Shown here piece by piece: positions 19,852 to 31,680 of a stretch of 64,000 bases of DNA. This DNA comes from Acuticoccus sp. I52.16.1 (GTDB lineage: Bacteria > Pseudomonadota > Alphaproteobacteria > Rhizobiales > Amorphaceae). The notes under the pieces were generated by a model. It did no database searches. It saw nothing but the letters and a program-made list of their open reading frames with translations, and was not told the origin of the DNA. The stretch spans positions 310,001 through 374,000 of the forward strand of contig NZ_CP094828.1 of assembly GCF_022865125.1 (NCBI RefSeq), written 5' to 3'. The position numbers were made by a program, and so were the translations under genes. Within the stretch, counting starts at the first letter, position 1. Every line of letters begins with the position of its first letter.

Positions 19852-21006
19852 ATGAACTGCCACGTTTCGGTGGCGGCGAACGGCGATCCGATCGAATCCA
19901 CCGACGGTACGACATGGAAGCCGGTCGGCCACCAGCGAGCGTCGACCGCACTCGGCGATCTGGCCGACGCCGATCTGTCTCCCGCGGCGTATCACGAGCT
20001 TCGTTTCGCGCTCGAGATTCTGTCGCGCCGCTTCCTCAGCGCGCGGGAAGTCGCCGAGAGGGCGATCGCGGACGGTGCCGTCAGCCCCGCCTTGTGGGCG
20101 CGGCACGCCGCCAACGAGTGCAAGCTCGGCGAGGTCGGCACCGCGCTGGAAGCGGCGCGCAATGCGGGCGACGCGGCGCTGATCGCAGAGATCGAACGGG
20201 TCCAGCGCAAGGTCTACTGGCGCACCGCGCCCGTCCCCGCACGGGTCGAGAGCGACGCCGGACCGTTGGAGCGAATCGGCCTCTTCATCAAAACCTTCCC
20301 CGGCGACGCCGAGCAGCTCGCATATCTGCTACGGTCGATCGACAAATATTGCCGTGGATTCTCGCAGCTCGTCATCGTCAGCGACGAAGGCTTCGAGCCG
20401 GGACCGTTGCCGACCAGCCTGCCCGTCAGCGTCGCCTATGAACGGGTGCCGCAGCTCGAATGGTGCAAGCCGCGCCGCAGGTCGGGCTATTGGTTTCAGC
20501 AGGGCGTGAAACTGACCTGGCCGCGCTACTGCAACTGCGACGCGGTGATCACGCTCGATTCGGATGTCGTCGTCACGGGTGAGATGACGCCGCGCTCCTT
20601 CCTGCGCGACGGCGCGCCGATGGTGCCGCATCGTCCCTGGGGCGCCCTGAAGACACCCCATCCCGGCCCGGTGTGGAAGCTGTCGGCGGACTACCTCCTC
20701 GGTGCGCCGACAACGCGGCAGCACATGGTCTGGCCCGGCGCGATCCTCACCCGCAAGGCCACCACCGCGCTGGACGACTATATCCGCGCGCACCTGGGGA
20801 CCGACGCGATGGACGTCTTCCTGCGCGACCCGGAAGGGCTGCGGCTGTCTGAGTTCGAGTTCTTCGGCACATTCGTCACGCATGTGGAGAGCCACGGCTA
20901 TGTCGGCGTGCCGTTTCACGAGAACCGGCCGCCGATTCGCAAGTTCCAGTCGACGGAGCCGCTGACCGAGGCGCACCTCGCCGAAATCGCCGCGATCCTC
21001 GCGTAG
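19852..21006 (+). CDS. DUF6492-like putative glycosyltransferase
   Basis: A 384-residue protein. The first 130 residues are helical and tetratricopeptide-like. From about residue 150 it looks like a GT-A-fold nucleotide-sugar transferase: LFIKTFPGDAEQLAYLLRSIDKY, then TLDSDVVVTGEM, whose DSD is a DxD-like metal motif near residue 240, then WPGAILTRKA. This matches the uncharacterised DUF6492 proteins of rhizobia as I remember them. The ATG at 19852 is preferred; a TTG at 19792 is in frame. It lies 150 bases after nuoF on the same strand but is not a complex I gene, and mvaB follows convergently. Acceptor and sugar donor are unknown. Confidence 0.65.
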   Translation: MNCHVSVAANGDPIESTDGTTWKPVGHQRASTALGDLADADLSPAAYHELRFALEILSRRFLSAREVAERAIADGAVSPALWARHAANECKLGEVGTALEAARNAGDAALIAEIERVQRKVYWRTAPVPARVESDAGPLERIGLFIKTFPGDAEQLAYLLRSIDKYCRGFSQLVIVSDEGFEPGPLPTSLPVSVAYERVPQLEWCKPRRRSGYWFQQGVKLTWPRYCNCDAVITLDSDVVVTGEMTPRSFLRDGAPMVPHRPWGALKTPHPGPVWKLSADYLLGAPTTRQHMVWPGAILTRKATTALDDYIRAHLGTDAMDVFLRDPEGLRLSEFEFFGTFVTHVESHGYVGVPFHENRPPIRKFQSTEPLTEAHLAEIAAILA

Positions 21007-21035: not shown

Positions 21036-21935
21036 CTACGCCGCCGCGGTGACGGCGGCGAGGTGGGAAGGCACCGGCCGGCCGATCGCCTCGCCGACGA
21101 AGCGGGCGACGCCGACGAGCGCGTCGAGGTCGATCCCCGTCTCGATCCCCATGCCGTGCAACATGTAGACGAGGTCCTCGGTGGCGACGTTGCCGGTCGC
21201 GCCCTCGGCGTAGGGGCAGCCGCCCACGCCGCCGACCGCCGCATCCAGCACCGCCACGCCGAGGTCGAGGCACGCGTGGATGTTGGCGAGCGCCTGGCCG
21301 TAGGTGTCGTGGAAATGCAGCGCGATACGCTCGATCGGCACCCGCTCGGCGACACGCTCGGTCATGCGGCGCGCGGCCGCCGGGGTGCCGCGGCCGATGG
21401 TGTCTCCGAGCGAGACCTCGAAGCAGCCCATCGCGTGCAGCCGCTCGGAGACCGCGACGACCGCCTCCAGCGGCACGGCCCCCTGGTAGGGGCAGCCGAG
21501 CACACACGAGACGTAGCCGCGCACGCGCACGCCCTCCTCGGCGGCGCGCTCCATCACCGGCGCAAACCGCTCCAGGCTCTCGTTAATCGAACAGTTGATG
21601 TTCTTCTCGCTGAACGCCTCCGAAGCGCTGGCGAAGACGGCGACCTCGTCGCAGCCCGAGGCGATCGCCGCGTCCAGACCCTTGAGGTTCGGCACCAGGA
21701 CGGGATAGCGCACGCCCGGTTTGCGGTGCATCGCGGCCAGGACCTCGGGCGTGCCGGCCATCTGCGGCACCCATTTGGGTGACACGAACGCCCCCGCCTC
21801 GATCACCGGGCAGCCGGCGGCGGCCAGACGGTCGATCAGCTCGGCTTTGACGGCGGGCGGGACGACGGCCTTCTCGTTTTGCAGCCCGTCGCGCGGGCCG
21901 ACCTCCACGATGGTGACGCGGGCGGGAAGAGACAT
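21036..21935 (-). CDS. mvaB: hydroxymethylglutaryl-CoA lyase
   Basis: A 299-residue TIM-barrel lyase that cleaves (S)-HMG-CoA into acetoacetate and acetyl-CoA. Diagnostic blocks are VTIVEVGPRDGLQNE (substrate and metal site) at residues 8-22, the metal-ligand HFHDTYGQALAN near 205, and GGVGGCPYAEGATGNVATEDLVYML near 230-255, which holds the active-site Cys of true HMG-CoA lyases. It lies 9 bases downstream of the MocR-type regulator on the same strand and is probably co-transcribed with it. With the divergent HMG-CoA reductase this defines a mevalonate degradation pathway; leucine catabolism genes, the other usual context, are absent. Confidence 0.93.
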   Translation of the reverse strand: MSLPARVTIVEVGPRDGLQNEKAVVPPAVKAELIDRLAAAGCPVIEAGAFVSPKWVPQMAGTPEVLAAMHRKPGVRYPVLVPNLKGLDAAIASGCDEVAVFASASEAFSEKNINCSINESLERFAPVMERAAEEGVRVRGYVSCVLGCPYQGAVPLEAVVAVSERLHAMGCFEVSLGDTIGRGTPAAARRMTERVAERVPIERIALHFHDTYGQALANIHACLDLGVAVLDAAVGGVGGCPYAEGATGNVATEDLVYMLHGMGIETGIDLDALVGVARFVGEAIGRPVPSHLAAVTAAA

Positions 21936-21944
21936 GGCGGATCC

Positions 21945-23336
21945 TCAGCGAAGTGCGGTCTTGAAGAAGTCGATGAGCCGCGCGTCGGCACCGTAGGCGA
22001 CGTTCACGCGGATGGCGCCCCGCTCGGCCGGGTTCAGGGCGGCTCGGTTGGGGCGGAAGATGCTGCCGGGGGCGAGGAAGATGCTGCGCTCGGCGGCGGC
22101 CTGCACCATCGCCATCTCGTCGACATGCGCCGGCAGCTCGGCCCAGACGTAGAAGCCCGGCACCTTCGGCGGACGGATCGTCAGGCCCACGCCCTCCAGC
22201 GCGCTCAACGTCTTGAGGTGCGCCTTCTCGACGCGCGTGCGCAGGCGGCGCAGGTGCCGCAAGTAGTGGCCGCGCTCGATGAGGCCGAGCACGAACGCCT
22301 CGACATAGTCCGAGCTGGCGACCGAGGTGAGCATCTTGATGTCGCGCAGCGCGGCGACGACGGCGGGCGACCCGGCGACGAAGCCGCAGCGCAGGCTCGC
22401 CGACAGCGTCTTGGAGAAGGTGCCCACGTAGAGGACGCGCTGGAGCTGGTCGAGCGCGGCGAGGCGCGTCAGCGTCGGCGGGACGATGTCGGCGAAGGCG
22501 TCGTTCTCGACGACGATCATGCCGGAGCGCTCCGCCGCCTGCAGGATCGCGAACGCGACCGAGGGGGAGAGCGACGACCCGGTCGGATTGTGCGCCTGGC
22601 TCTGGGTGAAGAACGCCTTGGGGTTCAGCGCCAGCTTGGCGTTCAGCTCCTCGATGTCGGGCCCGTCGTCACCCCGCTTGACGCCCTCCATGCGGATCCC
22701 GGCCAGCGCCAGCTTGCCGAAGAGCGGATAATAGCCGGGATCGTCGACGAGCACCGTGTCGCCGGGGCGAAGGAAGTGGCGGATGATGAGGTCCAGCGCG
22801 TGATTGGCGCCATGGGTCAGGAGGATCCCATCCTCGGCGGCCGAGATGGACCGCTCCAGCAGCATGACGCGCAGCCGCTCGCGCAGCGCCGCCAGGCCGT
22901 AGGACGAGCCGTAGCCGAAGGTGTCCGCCCCCTCGATGTTGCGGCTGGCGGTGAACCAGCGGCGCAGCTCCGAGCCTTCCATCCATGTGGCCGGCGGGCG
23001 CCCGTCGCCGGGGCGCACGGCGTAGCTCTTGTCGAGCTGTTCACGGAGCAATGAAACGAGGTCCACCGCTGCACTGACATGAGGCTGCGGTGCCGTCGCG
23101 ACGGGCATCCGGTCCCGCCGCACCACATAATAGCCCGACCCGGCCCGAACCTCGAGGAGGCCGGCGGCGACCAACCTGTCATACGCTTCGGCCATGGTAT
23201 TTTTTGACACACCATACTCGTCCGCCGCCTTGCGGATCGACGGCAGGCGCTGCCCCACGGCCCACGAATCGGCGTGAAGCCGCGCGCTCACTGCCTCCAC
23301 CACGGCATCGACGCGTGATGCTGGCCGTCCCCTCAC
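21945..23336 (-). CDS. MocR-type (GntR/aminotransferase) transcriptional regulator
   Basis: A 463-residue fusion. A GntR-type winged helix is at residues 1-75 (LPSIRKAADEYGVSKNTMAEAYDRL, GSGYYVV), and a fold-I PLP aminotransferase domain at about 105-463 carries the PLP-binding Lys309 in VGTFSKTLSASL. The GTG start at 23336 immediately follows the TGTCCC repeat region. MocR proteins use the aminotransferase fold as a PLP-dependent sensor and often control the divergent gene. Position therefore suggests it regulates mvaA and the TRAP genes and its own mvaB operon. What it senses is not evident; mevalonate has no amino group, so the effector question is open. Confidence 0.92.
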   Translation of the reverse strand: MRGRPASRVDAVVEAVSARLHADSWAVGQRLPSIRKAADEYGVSKNTMAEAYDRLVAAGLLEVRAGSGYYVVRRDRMPVATAPQPHVSAAVDLVSLLREQLDKSYAVRPGDGRPPATWMEGSELRRWFTASRNIEGADTFGYGSSYGLAALRERLRVMLLERSISAAEDGILLTHGANHALDLIIRHFLRPGDTVLVDDPGYYPLFGKLALAGIRMEGVKRGDDGPDIEELNAKLALNPKAFFTQSQAHNPTGSSLSPSVAFAILQAAERSGMIVVENDAFADIVPPTLTRLAALDQLQRVLYVGTFSKTLSASLRCGFVAGSPAVVAALRDIKMLTSVASSDYVEAFVLGLIERGHYLRHLRRLRTRVEKAHLKTLSALEGVGLTIRPPKVPGFYVWAELPAHVDEMAMVQAAAERSIFLAPGSIFRPNRAALNPAERGAIRVNVAYGADARLIDFFKTALR

Positions 23337-23341
23337 TAGAT

Positions 23342-23404
23342 TGTCCCATTTAATTGTTGGGACAGTCGCGCCAGTTAACCGGCCATCTGTCCCTTGATTG
23401 TCCC
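23342..23404. promoter_or_regulatory. cluster of four TGTCCC half-sites, probable MocR operator
   Basis: Between the regulator and mvaA lie TGTCCCA (23342-23348) facing TGGGACA (23358-23364), perfect 7-base arms with a 9-base AT-rich spacer. Two further direct copies of TGTCCC follow at 23389-23394 and 23399-23404. MocR proteins usually bind paired direct or inverted half-sites in exactly such divergent regions. The first pair abuts the regulator start and would suit autoregulation; the last two would control mvaA. Confidence 0.65.
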
Positions 23405-23462
23405 GTTAGGTAAGCAGACAACAAATGGAAGAAGCGCGCAAGACAAGGTCGGGAGTGGCGCA

Positions 23463-24755
23463 ATGGATCAGGCCCAAAAAGTAAGCTCGCGGTTGGAGGG
23501 CTACCGCAACAAGGCGCCGCAGGCGCGGCTCGAGCAGCTCGCCGCCGCCACCAGCCTGTCGCAGGGCGACAGCGCCGCGCTCGCCGGACAGGGCGCGCTC
23601 TCTGTCGAGCGCGCCAACGGCATGATCGAAAACGTCATCGGCGTGTTCGAGATGCCGATGGGCGTCGCCACCAACTTCACCATCAATGGGCGCGACATCC
23701 TCATCCCGATGGCGGTCGAAGAGCCGTCGGTGGTGGCCGCGGCCTCCTACATGGCCCGCATCGCGCGCGACAACGGGGGCTTCGTCACCTCCTCGACGCT
23801 GCCGATCATGCGCGCGCAGGTGCAGGTGATCGGCGTGACCGACCCCTACGGCGCCCGCTCGCGCATCATGGGCGCGAAGGCGCGCATCATCGAGGCGGCG
23901 AACGCCAAGGACGCCTTCCTCGTCGAGCTCGGCGGCGGCTGCAAGGACATCGAGGTTCACGTCTTCCCGCAGACGCGGCGCGGGCCGATGGTGGTGATGC
24001 ACCTCCTCGTCGACGTGCGCGATGCGATGGGCGCCAACGCGGTCAACACCATGGCCGAGGCGGTCGCCCCGATCGTCGAAGAGGTGACCGGCGGGTCGGT
24101 GCGGCTGCGCATCCTCTCCAATCTTGCGGACCTGCGCCTGTCGCGCGCCACGGTGACGCTGACCGAGGCCTCGCTCGCCTCCAAGGAATTCTCCGGCCGG
24201 CGCATCATGGACGGCATACTCGACGCCTACGAGTTCGCCGCCATCGACCCCTACCGCGCCGCGACGCACAACAAGGGCATCATGAACGGGATCGACCCCG
24301 TGGTCGTCGCCACCGGCAACGACTGGCGCGCGATCGAAGCGGGTGCCCACGCCTACGCCGCGCGCGCGGGCCGCTACACCTCCCTGACGACCTGGGAGGA
24401 GGACAACCAGGGCCGGCTCGTCGGCACCCTTGAGATGCCGATGGCGGTGGGCCTCGTCGGCGGTGCGACCAAGACGCACCCCGCCGCGCAGGCCGCGCTG
24501 AAGGTGATGAACGTCGACAGCGCGTCGCACCTGGGCGAGATCATCGTGGCGGTCGGCCTGGCGCAGAACATGGCGGCGCTGCGGGCGCTCGCCACCGAGG
24601 GCATCCAGCGCGGCCACATGGCGCTGCACGCCCGCAACATCGCCATCGTCGCCGGCGCGGTCGGCGAAGAGATCGAGAAGGTCGCGGCCGAGCTTGCCCG
24701 CCTTCACGACGTGCGCACCGACAAGGCGCGCGAACTCCTGGAGAAGATGCGCTGA
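23463..24755 (+). CDS. mvaA: hydroxymethylglutaryl-CoA reductase, degradative (class II)
   Basis: A 430-residue protein that follows the Pseudomonas mevalonii enzyme closely over its whole length. It has [10 protein letters not shown] near residue 51, the catalytic [13 protein letters not shown] near 86-98, [24 protein letters not shown] near 180, [13 protein letters not shown] with the catalytic Lys, [16 protein letters not shown] with the catalytic Asp, and [14 protein letters not shown] with the C-terminal His. Class II enzymes act in the oxidative direction, mevalonate to HMG-CoA, usually with NAD. The ATG at 23463 aligns with the family N-terminus and has GGGAG upstream. It heads an operon with the TRAP transporter. 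Confidence 0.95.
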
Positions 24756-24861
24756 CGGCTCCGGCCGCCATGCGCTTGCGAGGGCCCCGGCCCTCGTGCC
24801 CCCTTTCCCCAATGCGGCCCTCGAAAGCCGCGCCAGAAGAGATCCCACAGGGAGGACGTTG

Positions 24862-25908
24862 ATGACCAAGATTTCCCGCCGCACGTTCGGCAAACTCGCC
24901 GGTGGCGCGGCCGCATTCGCCGCGGCCGGCTCGCTCGCCGCCCCCGCCATCGCGCAGGGGCAGAAGGTGAAGTGGCGCATGCAGGCGCTGTGGGACGGCG
25001 GCACCACCCCGCTCCAGTTCGAAGAGGACTTCGTCACCCTGGTCGGCGAGAAGACCGGCGGCGACTTCGAGATTCAGCTCTTCTCGGCCGGCCAGATCGT
25101 GCCCCCGGCGCAGGCGTTCGACGCGGTCCGCGGCGGCGCCTTCCAGCTGATGAAGACCTTCGACGGCTACGAGGCCGGCAAGATCCCTGCGCTCGCCTTC
25201 ACCTCGACGATCCCGTTCGGCTTCCCCGAGGCCGCGCAGTACAATGCCTGGTTCTACGAGAACGGCGGCATCGAGATGGCGAAGGAGGCCTACGCCCCGG
25301 CCGGCCTCTCCTACATCGCCCCGTCCGTCTACGGCCAGGAGCCGATCCACTCGAAGGTCCGCATCACCGAGATCGCCGAGTTCGCCGGCAAGAACGGGCG
25401 CTTCGTCGGGCTCGCCTCGGCCGTCATGTCCGGCTTCGGCGTGAAGGTATCGCCGCTGCCGACCTCCGAGGTGTACTCCGCGCTCGACAAGGGCCTGATC
25501 GATATCGCCGACCGGGGCGACCTGCAGGCCAACCTCGACGCCGGCCTGGGTGAGGTGGCCAAGTTCATCATCCTGCCGGGCGTGCACCAGCCGACGACGT
25601 CGACCTCGTACGTCGCCAACACCGCGGCGATGAAGCAGCTGCCGGACGGCTTCGCCGAGGCGCTCGCCGAGGCCGCCAAGGAGACCGCCGAGGCCTACGA
25701 GGCGAACAAGATCGAGAGCGACAAGTCCGCCCTCGCCGCCTTCCAGGAGCAGGGTGTCGAGGTGATCGAGCTGGCGCAGGACGACGTCGTCGCGGCGCGT
25801 CCGAAGGCGCAGGAGCTGTGGCAGCAGGCCACAAAGGGCAACGCGCTCGCCGAGAAGATCCTCGAGTCGCAGGTGGCGCTGATGAAAGAGCTCGGGCTCA
25901 TCAGCTAA
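24862..25908 (+). CDS. TRAP transporter substrate-binding protein (DctP family), probable mevalonate binder
   Basis: A 348-residue periplasmic protein with a twin-arginine signal peptide (SRRTFGKLAGGAAAF..., cleavage near APAIAQG at about residue 32). DctP-family features include FSAGQIVPPAQAFDAVRGG, a conserved Arg-containing region near residue 165 and SALDKGLIDIADRGD near 210. The ATG at 24862 follows GGGAGG. It is 106 bases after mvaA and co-oriented with the two membrane components, so the likely ligand is mevalonate. TRAP-dependent mevalonate uptake is known for marine alphaproteobacteria; specificity here is inferred from context. Confidence 0.88.
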   Translation: MTKISRRTFGKLAGGAAAFAAAGSLAAPAIAQGQKVKWRMQALWDGGTTPLQFEEDFVTLVGEKTGGDFEIQLFSAGQIVPPAQAFDAVRGGAFQLMKTFDGYEAGKIPALAFTSTIPFGFPEAAQYNAWFYENGGIEMAKEAYAPAGLSYIAPSVYGQEPIHSKVRITEIAEFAGKNGRFVGLASAVMSGFGVKVSPLPTSEVYSALDKGLIDIADRGDLQANLDAGLGEVAKFIILPGVHQPTTSTSYVANTAAMKQLPDGFAEALAEAAKETAEAYEANKIESDKSALAAFQEQGVEVIELAQDDVVAARPKAQELWQQATKGNALAEKILESQVALMKELGLIS

Positions 25909-25935
25909 CCGCTGGTCCCCGAACAAGGCTCGACG

Positions 25936-26472
25936 ATGCCCCGCGCACTCAACGCTTTCGCCACCGCCGTGACGACGATCAACCGGCTGTTCTACAAGCT
26001 CGCGAGCCTATTGATGCTCGTGATCGTCCCGGTGATGCTCTACGCCGTGGTGGCCCGCTACGGGTTCGGCGCACCGTCGAGCTGGGGGCTGGAGCTGGCG
26101 ACGCTCCTGTTCGGCCCGTTCTTCCTCCTGGGCGGGCCCTACCTCCTCCACATCAAGGGCCACGTGAACCTCGATCTGGTGCGCCACTCGGCGCCCCCCT
26201 GGCTCAACCGGGCCTTCGACATCGTGAACTTCCCCATCATCGGGGCGTTCGCGCTGATCCTGCTCTATTACGCCTGGCCGTTCGCGGTGCAGTCGTGGGA
26301 GTTGGGCGAGACCTCCTTCACGACCTGGAACCCGCCGATCTGGCCGATCAAGTTCGTGATCCCCCTCGCCCTGGCCCTCCTCTTCCTTCAAGCGCTGGTC
26401 GAGTGGCTGCGCGTGCTCTTCGGCGATCCCGACGCGCTGGAGAACGAAACCAACGCGCCGGAGGCCCTGTGA
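25936..26472 (+). CDS. TRAP transporter small membrane subunit (DctQ)
   Basis: A 178-residue inner-membrane protein with four hydrophobic helices (about residues 22-45, 57-75, 93-120 and 137-160), the standard DctQ topology. The GGPYLLHIKGHVNLDLV motif after helix 2 is typical. It supports the large DctM subunit. The gene starts 27 bases after the binding protein and its stop overlaps the dctM GTG start. Confidence 0.88.
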   Translation: MPRALNAFATAVTTINRLFYKLASLLMLVIVPVMLYAVVARYGFGAPSSWGLELATLLFGPFFLLGGPYLLHIKGHVNLDLVRHSAPPWLNRAFDIVNFPIIGAFALILLYYAWPFAVQSWELGETSFTTWNPPIWPIKFVIPLALALLFLQALVEWLRVLFGDPDALENETNAPEAL

Positions 26473-27782
26473 GCGCCAACGTCATCCTGGTGGCGATGTT
26501 CGCAGGACTCGCCGTCTTCCTCCTCACCGGGCTTCCCGTCGCCTTCGTCCTGGGCGGCCTGTCGATCCTCTTCACGGTCCTCTTCTGGGACCCGAACGCC
26601 CTCATCATCGTCGTCCTGCAGATCTTCGACACCATGCGGTCGGAGTCGCTGCTGGCGATCCCGCTCTACATCTTCATGGCGCTGTTGTTGCAACGCTCGG
26701 GGGTGATCGAGGATCTCTACCGCGCGATGGAGCTGTGGTTCGGGAAGCTGCGCGGCGGGCTCGCGGTGGGGACCGTCCTCATCTGCGTCGTCATGGCGGC
26801 GATGACGGGCGTCGTCGGCGCGGCGGTGACGGCGATGGGCATCCTGGCGCTCCCCGAGATGCTGCGCCGCGGCTACGACCCGAAGCTCGCCACCGGCACC
26901 ATCTGCGCCTCGGGCACGCTCGGGATCCTGATCCCGCCGTCGATCCTCACCATCGTCTACGCGGTGACGGCGCAGGTCTCGATCGGCACCATGCTGATCG
27001 CCGGCATCGTGCCCGGTATCCTCCTGGCGACGCTCTATACCGGCTACATCCTCGTCACCGCGTGGCTGAACCCCGAGAAGGCGCCCGCGCCCGAGGACCT
27101 GCCGGACGTGTCGCTGCGCGACAAGTTGGCGGCGCTGCCGACGCTGATCCTGCCGACGGCGATCATCGTCATGGTTCTGGGGTCGATCTTCTTCGGCATC
27201 GCGACGCCGACGGAGGCCGCCGCGGTGGGCGTCGCCGGTGCCGCGCTCGCCGCCGCGACGCGCCGCAACCTGTCGCTGACGCTGCTGCTCGACGCGTCGG
27301 CGGAGACACTGAAGGCGACGGCGATGATCCTGTGGATCACGGTCGGCGCGAAGGCCTACGTCGCGATCTTCACCTCGCTCGGCGGGGCGGACGCGCTGCT
27401 CGGCGCCATCGAGAGCCTCGAGGTCAGCCCCTACCTGGTGCTGGCGGCGATGATGCTGATCCTGGTCTTCCTCGGCACCGTGCTCGACGAGATCGGCATC
27501 ATCCTCCTCACCGTGCCGGTCTTCCTGCCGGTGGTGCGCACGCTCGGCTTCGACGAGGTGTGGTTCGGCGTCCTCTTCGCGATGACGATCCAGATGGGCT
27601 ACATCTCGCCGCCCTTCGGCTACACGCTCTTCTACATCAAGGCGACGCTCCCGCCGCAGCTCTCGATGTCGACGGTCTATCGCGGCATCCTGCCCTTTTT
27701 CCTGCTGCAGCTCGTCGGCCTTCTCATCCTCGTCGCCGTGCCGAAGCTCGCGACCTTCCTGCCGGCGATGATGATCAACTGA
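26469..27782 (+). CDS. TRAP transporter large membrane subunit (DctM)
   Basis: A 437-residue permease with about twelve transmembrane helices and two re-entrant regions. Motifs of the family are GTICASGTLGILIPPSI near residue 142, TPTEAAAVGVAGA near 245, and MTIQMGYISPPFGYTLFYIKA near 375. It carries the Na+-coupled substrate path. The GTG start overlaps the dctQ stop (GTGA). It is third in the TRAP set of the mevalonate cluster and is followed by the lactonase after 108 bases. Confidence 0.92.
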   Translation: MSANVILVAMFAGLAVFLLTGLPVAFVLGGLSILFTVLFWDPNALIIVVLQIFDTMRSESLLAIPLYIFMALLLQRSGVIEDLYRAMELWFGKLRGGLAVGTVLICVVMAAMTGVVGAAVTAMGILALPEMLRRGYDPKLATGTICASGTLGILIPPSILTIVYAVTAQVSIGTMLIAGIVPGILLATLYTGYILVTAWLNPEKAPAPEDLPDVSLRDKLAALPTLILPTAIIVMVLGSIFFGIATPTEAAAVGVAGAALAAATRRNLSLTLLLDASAETLKATAMILWITVGAKAYVAIFTSLGGADALLGAIESLEVSPYLVLAAMMLILVFLGTVLDEIGIILLTVPVFLPVVRTLGFDEVWFGVLFAMTIQMGYISPPFGYTLFYIKATLPPQLSMSTVYRGILPFFLLQLVGLLILVAVPKLATFLPAMMIN

Positions 27783-27890
27783 CCGCCGCCCCGCCCGAGG
27801 GGCGGGGGACGTTCGTTGCTGCGAACGGTGGCCGCGTCCGCTCGGATGCGACCGCCACCAACGCCAACAAGAAGCTCATGGAGGAAATTC

Positions 27891-28919
27891 ATGAAACGCA
27901 CACTCTGTGCGATCGCGGCCCTGTGCCTGGCGCCCGGCCTCGCTCTCGCCCAATCCGCCGACGGCGACGTCCCGGCCCTGCCGCGCACCGCCGACATGGC
28001 GAGCCCGGTCCCCATCCCGCCCGCCGAGAAGAGCCTGCCGACCATCACCGCCAAGGAATGGTTCAAGGTCTCCGACGAGGGAATGCAGCTCGAGGGGCCG
28101 GTGTTCACCCCCAACGGCGACCTGATCTTCTGCGAAGTGTTCGAGGGCCGCATCTTCCGTCTGACGCCGGAAGGCGAACTCTCCGAGGTGCTGGGCAAGA
28201 ACGAGCTGCGCCCGGCCGGCATCGAGTCCGACAAGGAGGGCAACCTCTACGTCGCCGAGCTCGGCAACTTCGACGACGAGGGCTCGGTGGTGAAGGTCGC
28301 CGCGGACGGCTCGTCCGTGGAGGAGATCGTCCCGCGCAGCGCCGGCTACCTCGCCGACGATCTCGTCTTCGACCGTGACGGCGGGTTCTACTTCACCGAC
28401 TTCAAGGGCGGCTCGACGCGGCCGGACGGCGGCGTCTACTACGTCGGCCCCGAGCGGGGCGAGCCGGTGCAGGTGGTGCCGAACGTCGCCATCGGCAACG
28501 GCATCGGCCTCAGCCCGGACGGCAAGACGCTGTGGTTCACCGAGCTGGCCGCCGGCCGGCTCCACAAGGTGAGCCTCGCCGACGCCACCACCGTCGCCCC
28601 GTTCGGCGCCGTGGTCGCCTACCAGTTCACCGGTCCGGCGCCCGATTCGCTGCGCACCGACGCGGAAGGCAACGTCTACGTGGCGATGTACACGCAAGGT
28701 CGCATCATGGTGTTCAACAAGAACGGCTTCCCCGTCGGCCAGATCCTGGTGCCGGGGCGCGACGAGGGGCACAACCTGCGCACCACGTCGATGGTGATCA
28801 AGCCGGGCACGGACGACATGTACATCTTCACCAACGACTGGGACGGCGGCGAGGGCTCGACGATCTTCCACGCCAAGGCGCTCGCCCCGGCCTCCACCCC
28901 CTACGCCTGGCAGGACTGA
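27891..28919 (+). CDS. secreted SMP-30/gluconolactonase-type lactonase
   Basis: A 342-residue exported protein. A Sec signal peptide covers residues 1-20 or so (MKRTLCAIAALCLAPGLALA), followed by a six-bladed beta-propeller of the SMP-30/Drp35 family: EGPVFTPNGDLIFCEVFEGRIFRL, GIESDKEGNLYVAEL, DDLVFDRDGGFYFTDF, NGIGLSPDGKTLWFTE, LRTDAEGNVYVAMY. Metal-ligand positions (Glu in EGP, Asn in GNGIG, Asp in DSLRTD) appear present. These enzymes open small lactones. Downstream of a mevalonate TRAP system, mevalonolactone is the natural guess (inference). GGAGG precedes the ATG at 27891. It ends 27 bases before a strong terminator. Confidence 0.85.
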   Translation: MKRTLCAIAALCLAPGLALAQSADGDVPALPRTADMASPVPIPPAEKSLPTITAKEWFKVSDEGMQLEGPVFTPNGDLIFCEVFEGRIFRLTPEGELSEVLGKNELRPAGIESDKEGNLYVAELGNFDDEGSVVKVAADGSSVEEIVPRSAGYLADDLVFDRDGGFYFTDFKGGSTRPDGGVYYVGPERGEPVQVVPNVAIGNGIGLSPDGKTLWFTELAAGRLHKVSLADATTVAPFGAVVAYQFTGPAPDSLRTDAEGNVYVAMYTQGRIMVFNKNGFPVGQILVPGRDEGHNLRTTSMVIKPGTDDMYIFTNDWDGGEGSTIFHAKALAPASTPYAWQD

Positions 28920-28945
28920 CCCGCCACGCGCCAACGACCGAGCGG

Positions 28946-28979
28946 ACGGGCCCTCCTTCGCGGGGGCCCGTTTTCGTTT
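28946..28979 (+). terminator. Rho-independent terminator after the lactonase gene
   Basis: ACGGGCCC (28946-28953) pairs perfectly with GGGCCCGT (28964-28971) around a 10-base loop and runs into TTTTCGTTT. This is the clearest intrinsic terminator in the window and closes the mvaA-TRAP-lactonase unit. Confidence 0.85.
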
Positions 28980-29054
28980 CCCGCGCGCGGAGATCGCTTG
29001 CGCCGCGCCGCGGGGTGGTATGGGGTTTCGCAAAAGGACGGGGAGAGGAACGGC

Positions 29055-30005
29055 ATGACCGAGCGGGCGATTTCCAAGGTGGCGGTGATCGGCACCGGCG
29101 TGATCGGGGCGAGCTGGGTGAGCAACTTCCTCGCCCAGGGCCTCAGCGTCGGCGCCACGGACCCGGCCGACGGTGCCGAGGCGCGCCTGCGGGCGGCGGT
29201 CGACGCGCACTGGCCGGCGCTCACCGAAATCGGCCTCGCGCCGGGGGCGGACCGCGGCCGCCTCACCTTCCACCCCACGCCCGAAGCCGCCGCCGAGGGG
29301 GTCGACCTCGTCCAGGAGAACGGGCCGGAGCGGGTGGCGACCAAGCGCACCCTGTTCGCCGCGCTCGACGAGGCGGCGCCGGCCGACGCGATCGTCGCCA
29401 CCAGCACCTCGACCATCATGGTCAGCGAGTTTCAGGACGCCTGCACGCGCCATCCCGAGCGGGTCGTCCTGGCGCACCCGTTCAACCCGCCGCACCTGAT
29501 CCCGCTGGTGGAGGTCGGCGGCGGCAGCGCGACCGCGCCAGAGGTCGTGGCGCGGGCGATCGAGTTCTACCGCGCCATCGGCAAGCACCCGATCCACCTC
29601 AAACGAGAGGCACGCGGGCACGTCTCCAACCGCCTGCAGATCGCCTTGTGGAAGGAAGCCTTCCACATCGTCCAGTCCGGCATCGCCAGCGTGGAGGACG
29701 TCGACGCGGCGATCGCGCACGGGCCGGGGCTGCGCTGGGCGCTGCTGGGGCCGTTCCTCAACATCCACCTGTCGGGCGGGCCCGGCGGCATCCGTGGGCT
29801 GCTGGAAGGGCCGCTCGGCGCCGCGACGACGGGGATGTTCGGCGAGCTCGGCCAGCCGACGATGGACCAGGCGCTGATCGACCAGCTCTCGGAGGGTGTC
29901 GCCGAGGAGCTTGCCGCGCACGACGTCGAGGCCATGATCGAAACGCGCAACCGCCTCCTCGTCGAGCTGGTGCGCGACAAGGCCGCCGCGAGGGTTCTGC
30001 CATGA
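29055..30005 (+). CDS. 3-hydroxyacyl-CoA dehydrogenase family protein (carnitine-dehydrogenase-like)
   Basis: A 316-residue NAD-dependent dehydrogenase. The Rossmann motif VAVIGTGVIGASW is at residues 8-20, VQENGPER near 92, catalytic His in LAHPFNPPHLIPLVEV near 140, and substrate-side Asn in VSNRLQIALWKEAFHIV near 195. The overall pattern is that of L-carnitine dehydrogenase and related beta-hydroxyacyl dehydrogenases. The start has GAGAGGA upstream. Its stop overlaps the next ATG (ATGA). Next to a crotonase and an amidohydrolase it more likely oxidises a beta-hydroxyacyl-CoA, for example a hydroxyphenyl-hydroxypropionyl-CoA, than carnitine; this is inferred. Confidence 0.85.
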   Translation: MTERAISKVAVIGTGVIGASWVSNFLAQGLSVGATDPADGAEARLRAAVDAHWPALTEIGLAPGADRGRLTFHPTPEAAAEGVDLVQENGPERVATKRTLFAALDEAAPADAIVATSTSTIMVSEFQDACTRHPERVVLAHPFNPPHLIPLVEVGGGSATAPEVVARAIEFYRAIGKHPIHLKREARGHVSNRLQIALWKEAFHIVQSGIASVEDVDAAIAHGPGLRWALLGPFLNIHLSGGPGGIRGLLEGPLGAATTGMFGELGQPTMDQALIDQLSEGVAEELAAHDVEAMIETRNRLLVELVRDKAAARVLP

Positions 30006-30784
30006 CCGCGCTGCCCGACTCGCTCTCCGTCACCATCGAGGGGGAGATCGCGGTCGTCGCCCTGACGCGCCCGGCCAAGCGCAACGCTCTCGACATGGCG
30101 ACGGTGAACGGCCTCGCCGCCTTCTTCTCCGGCCCGCCACAGGGGGTGAAAGCCGCCGTCCTCGTCGGCGAGGGGCCGCATTTCTGTGCCGGGCTCGACC
30201 TGTCGGAGATGGTCGCGGTGACGACGCCGATGGCCTCGGTCACCCACTCGCGCGCCTGGCACCGGGCCTTCCAGGAGATCGAGTTCGGCGTCATCCCGGT
30301 GGTCTCGGTGATGCACGGCGCGGTGATCGGCGGCGGGTTGGAGCTGGCGGCGGCGACGCACGTGCGCGTGGCCGAGCGCACGGCCTACTACGGCCTGCCC
30401 GAAGGGCAGCGCGGGCTCTTCCTGGGCGGCGGCGGCTCGGTGCGGATCAGCCGGATGATCGGCGCGCACCGGGTGATGGAGATGATGCTCACCGGGCGCA
30501 CGCTCGCCGCCGAGGAGGCGCTGGGTCTCGGCCTCACGCACTATCTCGTCGAGCCCGGCGAGGGGCGGGCCAAGGGCATCGCGCTGGCGCGCAAGATCGC
30601 CGGCAACGCTTCGGGCAGCAACTACGCGATCATCAACGCCCTCCCCCGCATCGCCGCCAGCGCCCCGGAGGCGGGGCTGATGACCGAATCGCTGACGGCC
30701 GCCTTCGCGGAAGGCGCACCGGAGACCCGGCAGCGGCTGAAGGACTTCCTCGAAAAGCGCGCCGACAAGGTGACGCGGGACTGA
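30002..30784 (+). CDS. enoyl-CoA hydratase (crotonase family)
   Basis: A 260-residue crotonase. The oxyanion-hole element HFCAGLDLSEM is near residue 60, and both hydratase glutamates are present: one in VIGGGLELAAATHVRVAE near 115 and one in YGLPEGQRGLF near 135. It should therefore hydrate a 2-enoyl-CoA. It is translationally coupled to the dehydrogenase upstream and 11 bases from the amidohydrolase. With the feruloyl-CoA-synthase-like gene nearby, a hydroxycinnamoyl-CoA is the probable substrate (inference). It lacks the sequence hallmarks I associate with the hydratase/lyase that gives vanillin directly. Confidence 0.86.
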   Translation: MTALPDSLSVTIEGEIAVVALTRPAKRNALDMATVNGLAAFFSGPPQGVKAAVLVGEGPHFCAGLDLSEMVAVTTPMASVTHSRAWHRAFQEIEFGVIPVVSVMHGAVIGGGLELAAATHVRVAERTAYYGLPEGQRGLFLGGGGSVRISRMIGAHRVMEMMLTGRTLAAEEALGLGLTHYLVEPGEGRAKGIALARKIAGNASGSNYAIINALPRIAASAPEAGLMTESLTAAFAEGAPETRQRLKDFLEKRADKVTRD

Positions 30785-30795
30785 AGGCGGAGCCC

Positions 30796-31680
30796 ATGAA
30801 CATCGACGATCTCGTCGCCATCGACGTGCACACCCACGCCGAGCGCTCCTGCCGCCAGCCGGCGGACACCTTCTGGCAGCCCTACGAGGACGCGGCGACG
30901 CAATATTTCAAGGTCGGCGAGCGGCCGACCATCGCCGACACGATCGCGCATTACCGCGCGCGGAAGATCGGGCTGGTGATGTTCTGCGTCGACAGCGAAT
31001 CGACCATCGGCAACCGCCGCATCTCCAACCTCGAGGTGGCCGAGGCCGCGGCGGCGAACGCGGACATGATGATGGCCTTCGCCTCCATCGACCCGCACAA
31101 GGGGATGATGGGCGTGCGCGAGGCGCGCGAGCTGATCGAGGCCGGGCTCATCCGGGGCTTCAAGTTCCACCCCACCCTTCAGGGCTTCTTTCCCAACGAC
31201 CCGCTCGCCTACAAGCTCTACGAGGTGATCGCCGAGCACAAGCTGCCGGCGCTCTTCCACTCCGGCCACTCGGGGATCGGCACCGGCATGCCGGGCGGCG
31301 GGGGGCTGCGGCTGAAGTACTCCAACCCCATGCACCTCGACGACGTCGCGGCCGACTTTCCCGACATGACGGTCATCATCGCCCACCCGTCGTGGCCGTG
31401 GCAGGACGAGGCGCTGTCGGTGTGCCTGCACAAGCCGAATGTCTACATCGACCTGTCGGGCTGGCGGCCGAAATACTTTCCGCCGCAGCTCGTCCAATTC
31501 GCCAACACGCAGCTCAAGCGCAAGATGCTGTTCGGGACGGACTACCCGCTCATCACCCCGGATGCGTGGATCGCGGACTTCAAGGACGCGGGCTTCCGCG
31601 AGGAGGTACACCCGCTGATCCTGAAGGATAATGCCGTCCGCGCCCTCGGGATCCGCCAAAACTCGCCCCCACCCCAATAA
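30796..31680 (+). CDS. amidohydrolase-2 family protein (ACMSD-like), possible beta-ketoacyl-CoA hydrolase
   Basis: A 294-residue TIM-barrel metal-dependent hydrolase/decarboxylase. Metal-binding IDVHTHAE is at residues 8-15, FKFHPTLQGFFPND near 120, the barrel His in ALFHSGHSGIG near 153, VIIAHPSWPW near 193, and the catalytic Asp in LFGTDYPLITPD near 248. Proteins of this family in hydroxycinnamate clusters are annotated 4-hydroxyphenyl-beta-ketoacyl-CoA hydrolase, which releases the benzoate from the side chain. Position after the dehydrogenase and crotonase supports that assignment here, though a decarboxylase is an alternative. Confidence 0.82.
   Translation: MNIDDLVAIDVHTHAERSCRQPADTFWQPYEDAATQYFKVGERPTIADTIAHYRARKIGLVMFCVDSESTIGNRRISNLEVAEAAAANADMMMAFASIDPHKGMMGVREARELIEAGLIRGFKFHPTLQGFFPNDPLAYKLYEVIAEHKLPALFHSGHSGIGTGMPGGGGLRLKYSNPMHLDDVAADFPDMTVIIAHPSWPWQDEALSVCLHKPNVYIDLSGWRPKYFPPQLVQFANTQLKRKMLFGTDYPLITPDAWIADFKDAGFREEVHPLILKDNAVRALGIRQNSPPPQ

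Follow-up and report, generated by a model that had tools for sequence, protein, structure and literature searches.

The catabolism of mevalonate is known from Pseudomonas mevalonii, in which a class II 3-hydroxy-3-methylglutaryl-coenzyme A (HMG-CoA) reductase and an HMG-CoA lyase convert mevalonate by way of HMG-CoA to acetyl-CoA and acetoacetate; in other organisms mevalonate is a building block for sterols and terpenes. Mevalonolactonase activity is likewise known, from the Drp35 protein of Staphylococcus aureus: in the accessible part of Reichert et al. 2018 (PMC6052127), DL-mevalonolactone was reported to be hydrolysed at 478 umol/min/mg, a rate exceeding those on the other lactones assayed by 100-fold or more, and mevalonolactone was suggested as the physiological substrate. 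The operators of MocR-type regulators are described, in the accessible part of PMC5320631, as multi-box arrays of direct and inverted TGT-bearing repeats, and according to a 2023 review a mevalonate-responsive transcription factor had yet to be identified. Among the literature matches listed, which were mostly open-access, nothing was recognised on a tripartite ATP-independent periplasmic (TRAP) transporter for mevalonate, on a MocR or operator for mevalonate use, or on a lactonase in a mevalonate catabolic cluster; the first-pass annotation had counted TRAP uptake of mevalonate in alphaproteobacteria as known, for which these matches gave no confirmation. The terms 'mevalon' and 'HMG' are absent from the main text of Suvorova and Rodionov (PMC5320631), although the unnamed MocR groups of its supplement may include the one described below. 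The locus compared here with these systems is an island of about 8 kb, comprising seven genes and a terminator at 21036-28979 of a 64,000-nucleotide stretch of the Acuticoccus sp. I52.16.1 genome (contig NZ_CP094828.1, positions 310,001 to 374,000), the whole of which is called the window.

The island is very probably a unit for the utilisation of mevalonate and mevalonolactone. Its leftward unit consists of mocR and an HMG-CoA lyase gene spaced by 9 bp, and its rightward unit of the reductase gene mvaA, the TRAP genes dctP, dctQ and dctM (the last two overlapping by 4 bp), whose three families all lie in this one unit, and a lactonase gene. The start codons of mocR and mvaA are 126 bp apart across a gap at 23337-23462; starts were refined from the sequence of the intergenic gaps, which placed the ATG codons of mvaA and of the lactonase gene as tabulated below. 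The first-pass annotation had described seven genes in divergent units closed by a terminator, and the open reading frames (ORFs), family profile searches and terminator stem bear this out.

The linkage of this MocR to mvaA was found to recur widely. Neighbouring genes were assigned by tblastn tables at the 80 best loci from a search with at least 591 reductase matches; 39 of the 80 were counted as proteobacterial (L002-L038, L064, L069); L107, L120, L121 and L122 stood outside the analysis. Of the 39 proteobacterial loci, 30 carry mvaA and a divergent MocR gene of the same group, with the HMG-CoA lyase within the locus in 19 of these 30, and no MocR match was found at the other 41 of the best 80. 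Among further genomes over the reductase cut-off, six of eight relatives and eight of twelve from the class have the same divergent pair; one of the latter (G378) is the same replicon as L015, with an identical MocR. The reductase itself is patchily distributed, TIGR00532 being over its cut-off in 9 of 121 relatives, the source genome included, in 2 of the 8 genomes of the genus and in 13 of 385 genomes of the class. Among the loci compared, the window and G005 alone showed the complete seven-gene order; six of the seven genes, without the lactonase gene, were found in G008 and G009.

A tree was built from 45 mvaA-divergent MocRs, the 15 nearest other MocRs and one outgroup, and the branch separating the 45 from their nearest neighbours had a support of 97/98 (0.874 by FastTree on an earlier set of 37 mvaA-linked MocRs). 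The 45 rows represent 44 distinct sequences, since L015 and L173 are identical, and several other rows are more than 90% identical. Three proteins of other MocR types (L024_2535, L030_4831, L118) were left out of the final tree. The MocR beside the reductase in G027 was considered as a member and rejected; its gene is convergent, and it falls among the sister MocRs, outside the 45. Among the 121 relatives, seven genomes carry a MocR of at least 47% identity to that of the island and all seven are reductase genomes, while the next MocRs stand at no more than 41%, mostly in genomes without reductase; the reductase genomes G027 and G085 have no MocR of at least 47%. The next MocR-like match in the source genome is 29% identical. 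The best NCBIfam equivalog score of the island MocR was 212 bits for PdxR, against a cut-off of 320, and it also fell below the cut-offs for MocR, EhuR, GabR, YczR and PtsJ. K309, N250, D279, R316 and R443 are invariant in all 45 group members; K309 is presumably the Schiff-base lysine of pyridoxal 5'-phosphate (PLP), and we take N250, D279 and R316 to be pocket residues and R443 to occupy the position that in aminotransferases is taken by the arginine for the substrate carboxylate. With these PLP-site residues kept, the island MocR is predicted to bind PLP. Residue 46, in the recognition helix, is N in 45/45 group members and S in 15/15 sister MocRs. As a separate observation, the sister MocR group (L136-L149), which occurs in many genomes of the order without reductase, appears by eye to have repeat-like upstream sequences of its own, GTACAATT...AAACTGTA.

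Four boxes lie between the two units of the island, TTGTCCC at 23341-23347, GGGACAG at 23359-23365, CTGTCCC at 23387-23393 and TTGTCCC at 23398-23404, in line with the multi-box, TGT-bearing operators of MocR regulators (accessible part of PMC5320631); the segment 23341-23404 is a candidate operator of the island MocR. The pattern CTGT[AC]CC, in either orientation, was found in all 45 mocR-mvaA gaps (for L103, in the first 220 nt of a 1.3-kb gap), most of which hold two or more copies. It was present in 37/37 of the gaps that defined it, compared with a mean of 1.5 and a maximum of 6 of 37 in 200 dinucleotide shuffles, and in 8/8 gaps fetched later, of which L173 duplicates L015 and L171 and L172 are its close relatives; outside the L015 genus the count was 5/5. 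In 200-bp upstream regions of reductase genes without a group MocR, which began at the tblastn match and not at a curated start codon, the pattern occurred in 0/13 proteobacterial regions (L102, adjoining a sister MocR, and L106, at a contig end, being omitted) and in 0/39 others (the 41 loci minus L056 and L081, with too little upstream DNA). A GG[TG]ACAG box precedes CTGT[AC]CC by 27-28 bp in 14 pairs. The gaps with the C form only number 13, and their MocRs are the 13 that have alanine at residue 49; the other 32 MocRs, with V, I or L there, have at least one A-form box in the gap. Members of the 13 included in the earlier tree cluster together, so one event could account for the match, which is no more than suggestive. 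L103 also shows by eye what appears to be a Bug/TctC-like binding-protein gene within its 1.3-kb gap. Control by a MocR had been put forward in the first-pass annotation as a new element; the control is supported by the group linkage and the boxes, and the regulator is no local oddity, being a partner of mvaA in many genera.

The transporter genes beside mvaA vary. Across the 30 group-MocR loci, a TctA type with a small partner was found in 19 (the large subunit in L006 being PF01970), the DctPQM type of the window in five, a Liv-type ATP-binding cassette (ABC) transporter directly downstream in two and some kilobases off in two more, a sugar-type ABC binding protein in one and no recognised transporter in one. 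Several kinds of transporter thus replace one another beside the same MocR-mvaA core, which fits a single shared imported substrate. It is unlikely, on this evidence, that the transporter imports another hydroxy acid, lactate- or ketoacid-like, and that the reductase handles mevalonate of other origin, even though the solved members of the TRAP group to which DctP belongs are named as lactate- or ketoacid-binding and no chain among the 60 structure matches listed for DctP was named as a mevalonate binder. An ADRGD stretch was present in 9/9 of the close mvaA-linked DctPs aligned and absent from three distant ones; at that place TTHA0766 (chains 7e9y and 2zzv, which we take to be the same protein) and 4yzz (whose ligand is presumably picolinate) read differently. 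Mevalonate is the probable ligand of DctP. At four reductase loci without a group MocR (L031:7952-9016, L175, L176, L177), a DctP 26-28% identical to that of the window stands beside mvaA; these DctPs may represent another TRAP family with the same substrate.

The nearest solved relative of the lactonase is Drp35 of S. aureus (E 2.7e-86, the next protein being at 7.6e-17), with 141 of 310 aligned residues identical (45.5%). E48, D138, N185, D236 and S237, presumably the metal and catalytic positions, are conserved in all eight SMP-30 proteins aligned (window, G005, L003, L008, L034 and three Tistrella-type proteins), and D138 is also marked by the D138N chain 2dso among the structure matches. 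The protein is predicted to act on mevalonolactone, by analogy with Drp35; the enzymology of Drp35 was done on the protein of a species whose mevalonate pathway is biosynthetic, and it does not depend on the gene neighbourhood seen here. Signal-peptide-like N-termini, judged by eye, in the lactonases of the window, G005, L003, L008, L034 and L170 suggest export to the periplasm. A general sugar- or xenobiotic-lactonase, present in the operon by chance, is quite improbable: SMP-30 proteins are diverse, and one adjoins mvaA in just 4 of the 47 reductase loci surveyed plus the window, yet this one is closest to a measured mevalonolactonase, and such genes stand beside mvaA with both the TRAP type (window, G005) and the TctA type (L003, L008, L034) of transporter. 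A Drp35-like gene (E<=1e-40) was found in 4 of 385 genomes of the class, all four among the 13 with a reductase over cut-off, namely the source genome and three of one genus (Tistrella-type: G153, G281, G378), in which the lactonase gene and mvaA are on different contigs. Upstream of these unlinked genes lie operator-like boxes, TTGTCCC-N12-GGTACAG, with GGCACAG in G281. The composite pattern YTGTCCCN{11,12}GGKACAG occurred at exactly two places each in G153 and G378, one in the mocR-mvaA gap and the other some 130 bp upstream of the lactonase gene; with the pattern reversed as a control, 0 to 3 matches per genome were obtained. In this one genus, the boxes before the unlinked genes connect the lactonase with the MocR regulon independently of gene neighbourhood. 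A dedicated lactonase had also been proposed as a new element; the activity is not new, since Drp35 was assayed as a mevalonolactonase, and it is the place of the gene and its likely co-regulation that are new here.

The source genome (G000; 5.53 Mb in 6 contigs) carries a single detected HMG-CoA reductase, and the island enzyme matches that of P. mevalonii (1qax) at E 2.6e-185. Catalytic positions were taken from an alignment to the P. mevalonii enzyme, in which we take Glu 83, Lys 267, Asp 283 and His 381 to be catalytic and Asp 146 to be the aspartate of the nicotinamide adenine dinucleotide (NAD) type; their counterparts E87, K271, D287, H385 and D150 are invariant in 48/48 aligned reductases. 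H381 is also named in the accessible part of PMC12292504, whose entries assign 6dio and 1qax, the two solved chains nearest to the island reductase, to Delftia acidovorans and P. mevalonii. By its TIGR00532 score and D150, the island reductase is classed as the degradative NAD type. The genome carries dxr, and no match to the mevalonate kinase family was found in it at E<=1; a missed kinase is possible but unlikely, because the assembly is 97.25% complete. Some reductase relatives, in Chloroflexi and archaea, are presumably biosynthetic. A biosynthetic reductase supplying mevalonate for isoprenoids is nevertheless highly improbable here, for although class II reductases are reversible, with both directions reported for a relative (accessible part of PMC12292504), the island combines an NAD-type aspartate with a lyase in a genome with dxr and no kinase match. 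The import of mevalonate and its conversion to acetoacetate and acetyl-CoA, as claimed in the first-pass annotation, are the best reading and are supported; the refuting condition set there, a reductase running only biosynthetically with mevalonate kinase genes elsewhere in the genome, did not hold, given dxr, a single detected reductase and no kinase match.

In the proposed mechanism, the Drp35-type lactonase would open mevalonolactone to mevalonate in the periplasm, DctP would bind mevalonate, and DctQM would import it with a cation. The NAD-linked reductase, running in the oxidative direction, would convert mevalonate, CoA and two NAD to HMG-CoA, which the lyase would cleave to acetyl-CoA and acetoacetate. 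The divergent MocR would bind the TGTCCC/TGTACC boxes between the units and couple them to mevalonate or a derivative, and in Tistrella-type genomes it may also bind the boxes before the unlinked lactonase gene. It would act as a repressor or an activator, and PLP may have a part in sensing. The effector might be the acid, which would bind next to the internal aldimine while R443 contacts its carboxylate, or it might be another molecule.

Several observations weigh against a mevalonate unit under MocR control. The group MocR is missing from 9 of the 39 proteobacterial loci, 2 of the 8 other relatives and 4 of the 12 other class genomes; G085, which lacks it, has a contig of just 5.6 kb. Of the 45 gaps, 37 had been viewed before the box pattern was chosen, 2 of 14 sister MocR upstream regions contain one box, and the composite pattern was written after the Tistrella promoters had been viewed. 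The composite is absent in G005, the closest genome with a full island, was not found in G009, occurs in G072 only away from mva, and is present at one extra place each in G000 and G008; in G281 it matches at mocR-mvaA only, the GGCACAG of the lactonase promoter not fitting it. The lactonase is optional, given how few loci have it beside mvaA, and the closest solved relative of DctP is of the lactate-binding TTHA0766 group, not a mevalonate binder. MocR regulators normally read an amine through PLP, and mevalonate has none; GabR-type sensing uses an external aldimine with PLP, which mevalonate, without an amino group, could not form. We give about an even chance to a further proposal, in which the MocR group ('MvaR') forms a proteobacterial family of natural mevalonate-responsive transcription factors. 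In this proposal the family retains the whole PLP site together with the carboxylate arginine for an amine-free ligand, PLP serves as a permanent component of the sensor instead of a reaction partner, and the regulon includes an exported Drp35-type mevalonolactonase.

Coordinates of the island features in the window
Feature	Position	Strand	Evidence
HMG-CoA lyase (mvaB-like), last gene of mocR unit	21036..21935	-	NF004283 449 bits, cut-off 246
MocR-type regulator (GntR winged helix-turn-helix + aminotransferase-like domain), mvaA-linked group	21945..23336	-	PF00392 + PF00155; GTG start
Candidate MocR operator	23341..23404	.	four boxes in mocR-mvaA gap
Class II HMG-CoA reductase mvaA, degradative type by sequence	23463..24755	+	TIGR00532 418.9 bits, cut-off 259.95
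DctP, TRAP solute-binding protein	24862..25908	+	PF03480
DctQ, TRAP small membrane subunit	25936..26472	+	PF04290
DctM, TRAP large membrane subunit	26469..27782	+	PF06808; TIGR00786 329 bits, cut-off 268
Drp35-type SGL/SMP-30 lactonase, signal-like N-terminus, predicted mevalonolactonase	27891..28919	+	PF08450; Drp35 2dg0 E 2.7e-86
Intrinsic terminator	28946..28980	+	10-bp G+C stem + T tract

The terminator has its stem arms at 28946-28955 and 28962-28971, followed by TTTTCGTTT, and folds at -25.7 kcal/mol (z -1.74), a fold equalled or bettered by 10 of 200 shuffles. It was absent from the output of a simple terminator scanner; by its stem and tract it is a credible terminator. Beyond it, at 29055-31680, lie genes for a carnitine-dehydrogenase-like 3-hydroxyacyl-CoA dehydrogenase (below its NCBIfam cut-off), a crotonase and an amidohydrolase. 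These were considered as island members and rejected because the terminator intervenes and because in G002, a genome of the same genus without a reductase match, nuoF is about 0.37 kb from the downstream dehydrogenase gene, with no island gene found between. On the other side, a 384-aa ORF at 19852-21006 stands between nuoF and the island and had no match at the equivalent places in G005 (L099) and G002 (L116). Foreign origin by base composition was rejected, the G+C fraction being 0.687 in the island and 0.690 and 0.702 in the flanks; the sole hint of gain or loss is the patchy presence within the genus. The description of the island as self-contained was too strong, as HMG-CoA lyase-family genes over cut-off number four in the genome, three of them elsewhere (the island copy scores best), and acetoacetate must be activated by genes outside the island.

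Like the mvaAB operon of P. mevalonii, the island pairs a class II NAD-type reductase with a lyase for the degradation of mevalonate, and in the Pseudomonas loci L022, L023, L026, L028 and L034 the reductase gene is followed by the lyase gene, with a divergent MocR. In contrast to P. mevalonii, the island places its lyase gene with mocR, has an additional lactonase gene and seems to rely on TRAP-type uptake. The lactonase shares with Drp35 the same five metal and catalytic positions; Drp35 is a cytoplasmic protein of a species whose mevalonate pathway is biosynthetic, whereas the island enzyme has a signal-like start and is encoded in a catabolic unit. Gene context thereby links Drp35-type lactonases to mevalonate a second time, and if the proposed regulon is real, mevalonolactone scavenging would be more widespread than known from S. 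aureus. In ecological terms, the island points to mevalonate or its lactone as a bacterial carbon source. DctP falls by sequence in the same group as TTHA0766 (7e9y) and 4yzz, from which it differs in the surroundings of ADRGD. The MocR group offers a defined regulator, operator and target set in many genera, and raises the question of how a PLP-type sensor could read an amine-free molecule. With PdxR, GabR, EutR/EnuR and TauR, as described in the accessible part of PMC5320631, the island MocR shares a GntR domain, an aminotransferase-like domain with the PLP lysine and a multi-box operator, and it differs from them in forming a group of its own whose target pathway is without an amine.

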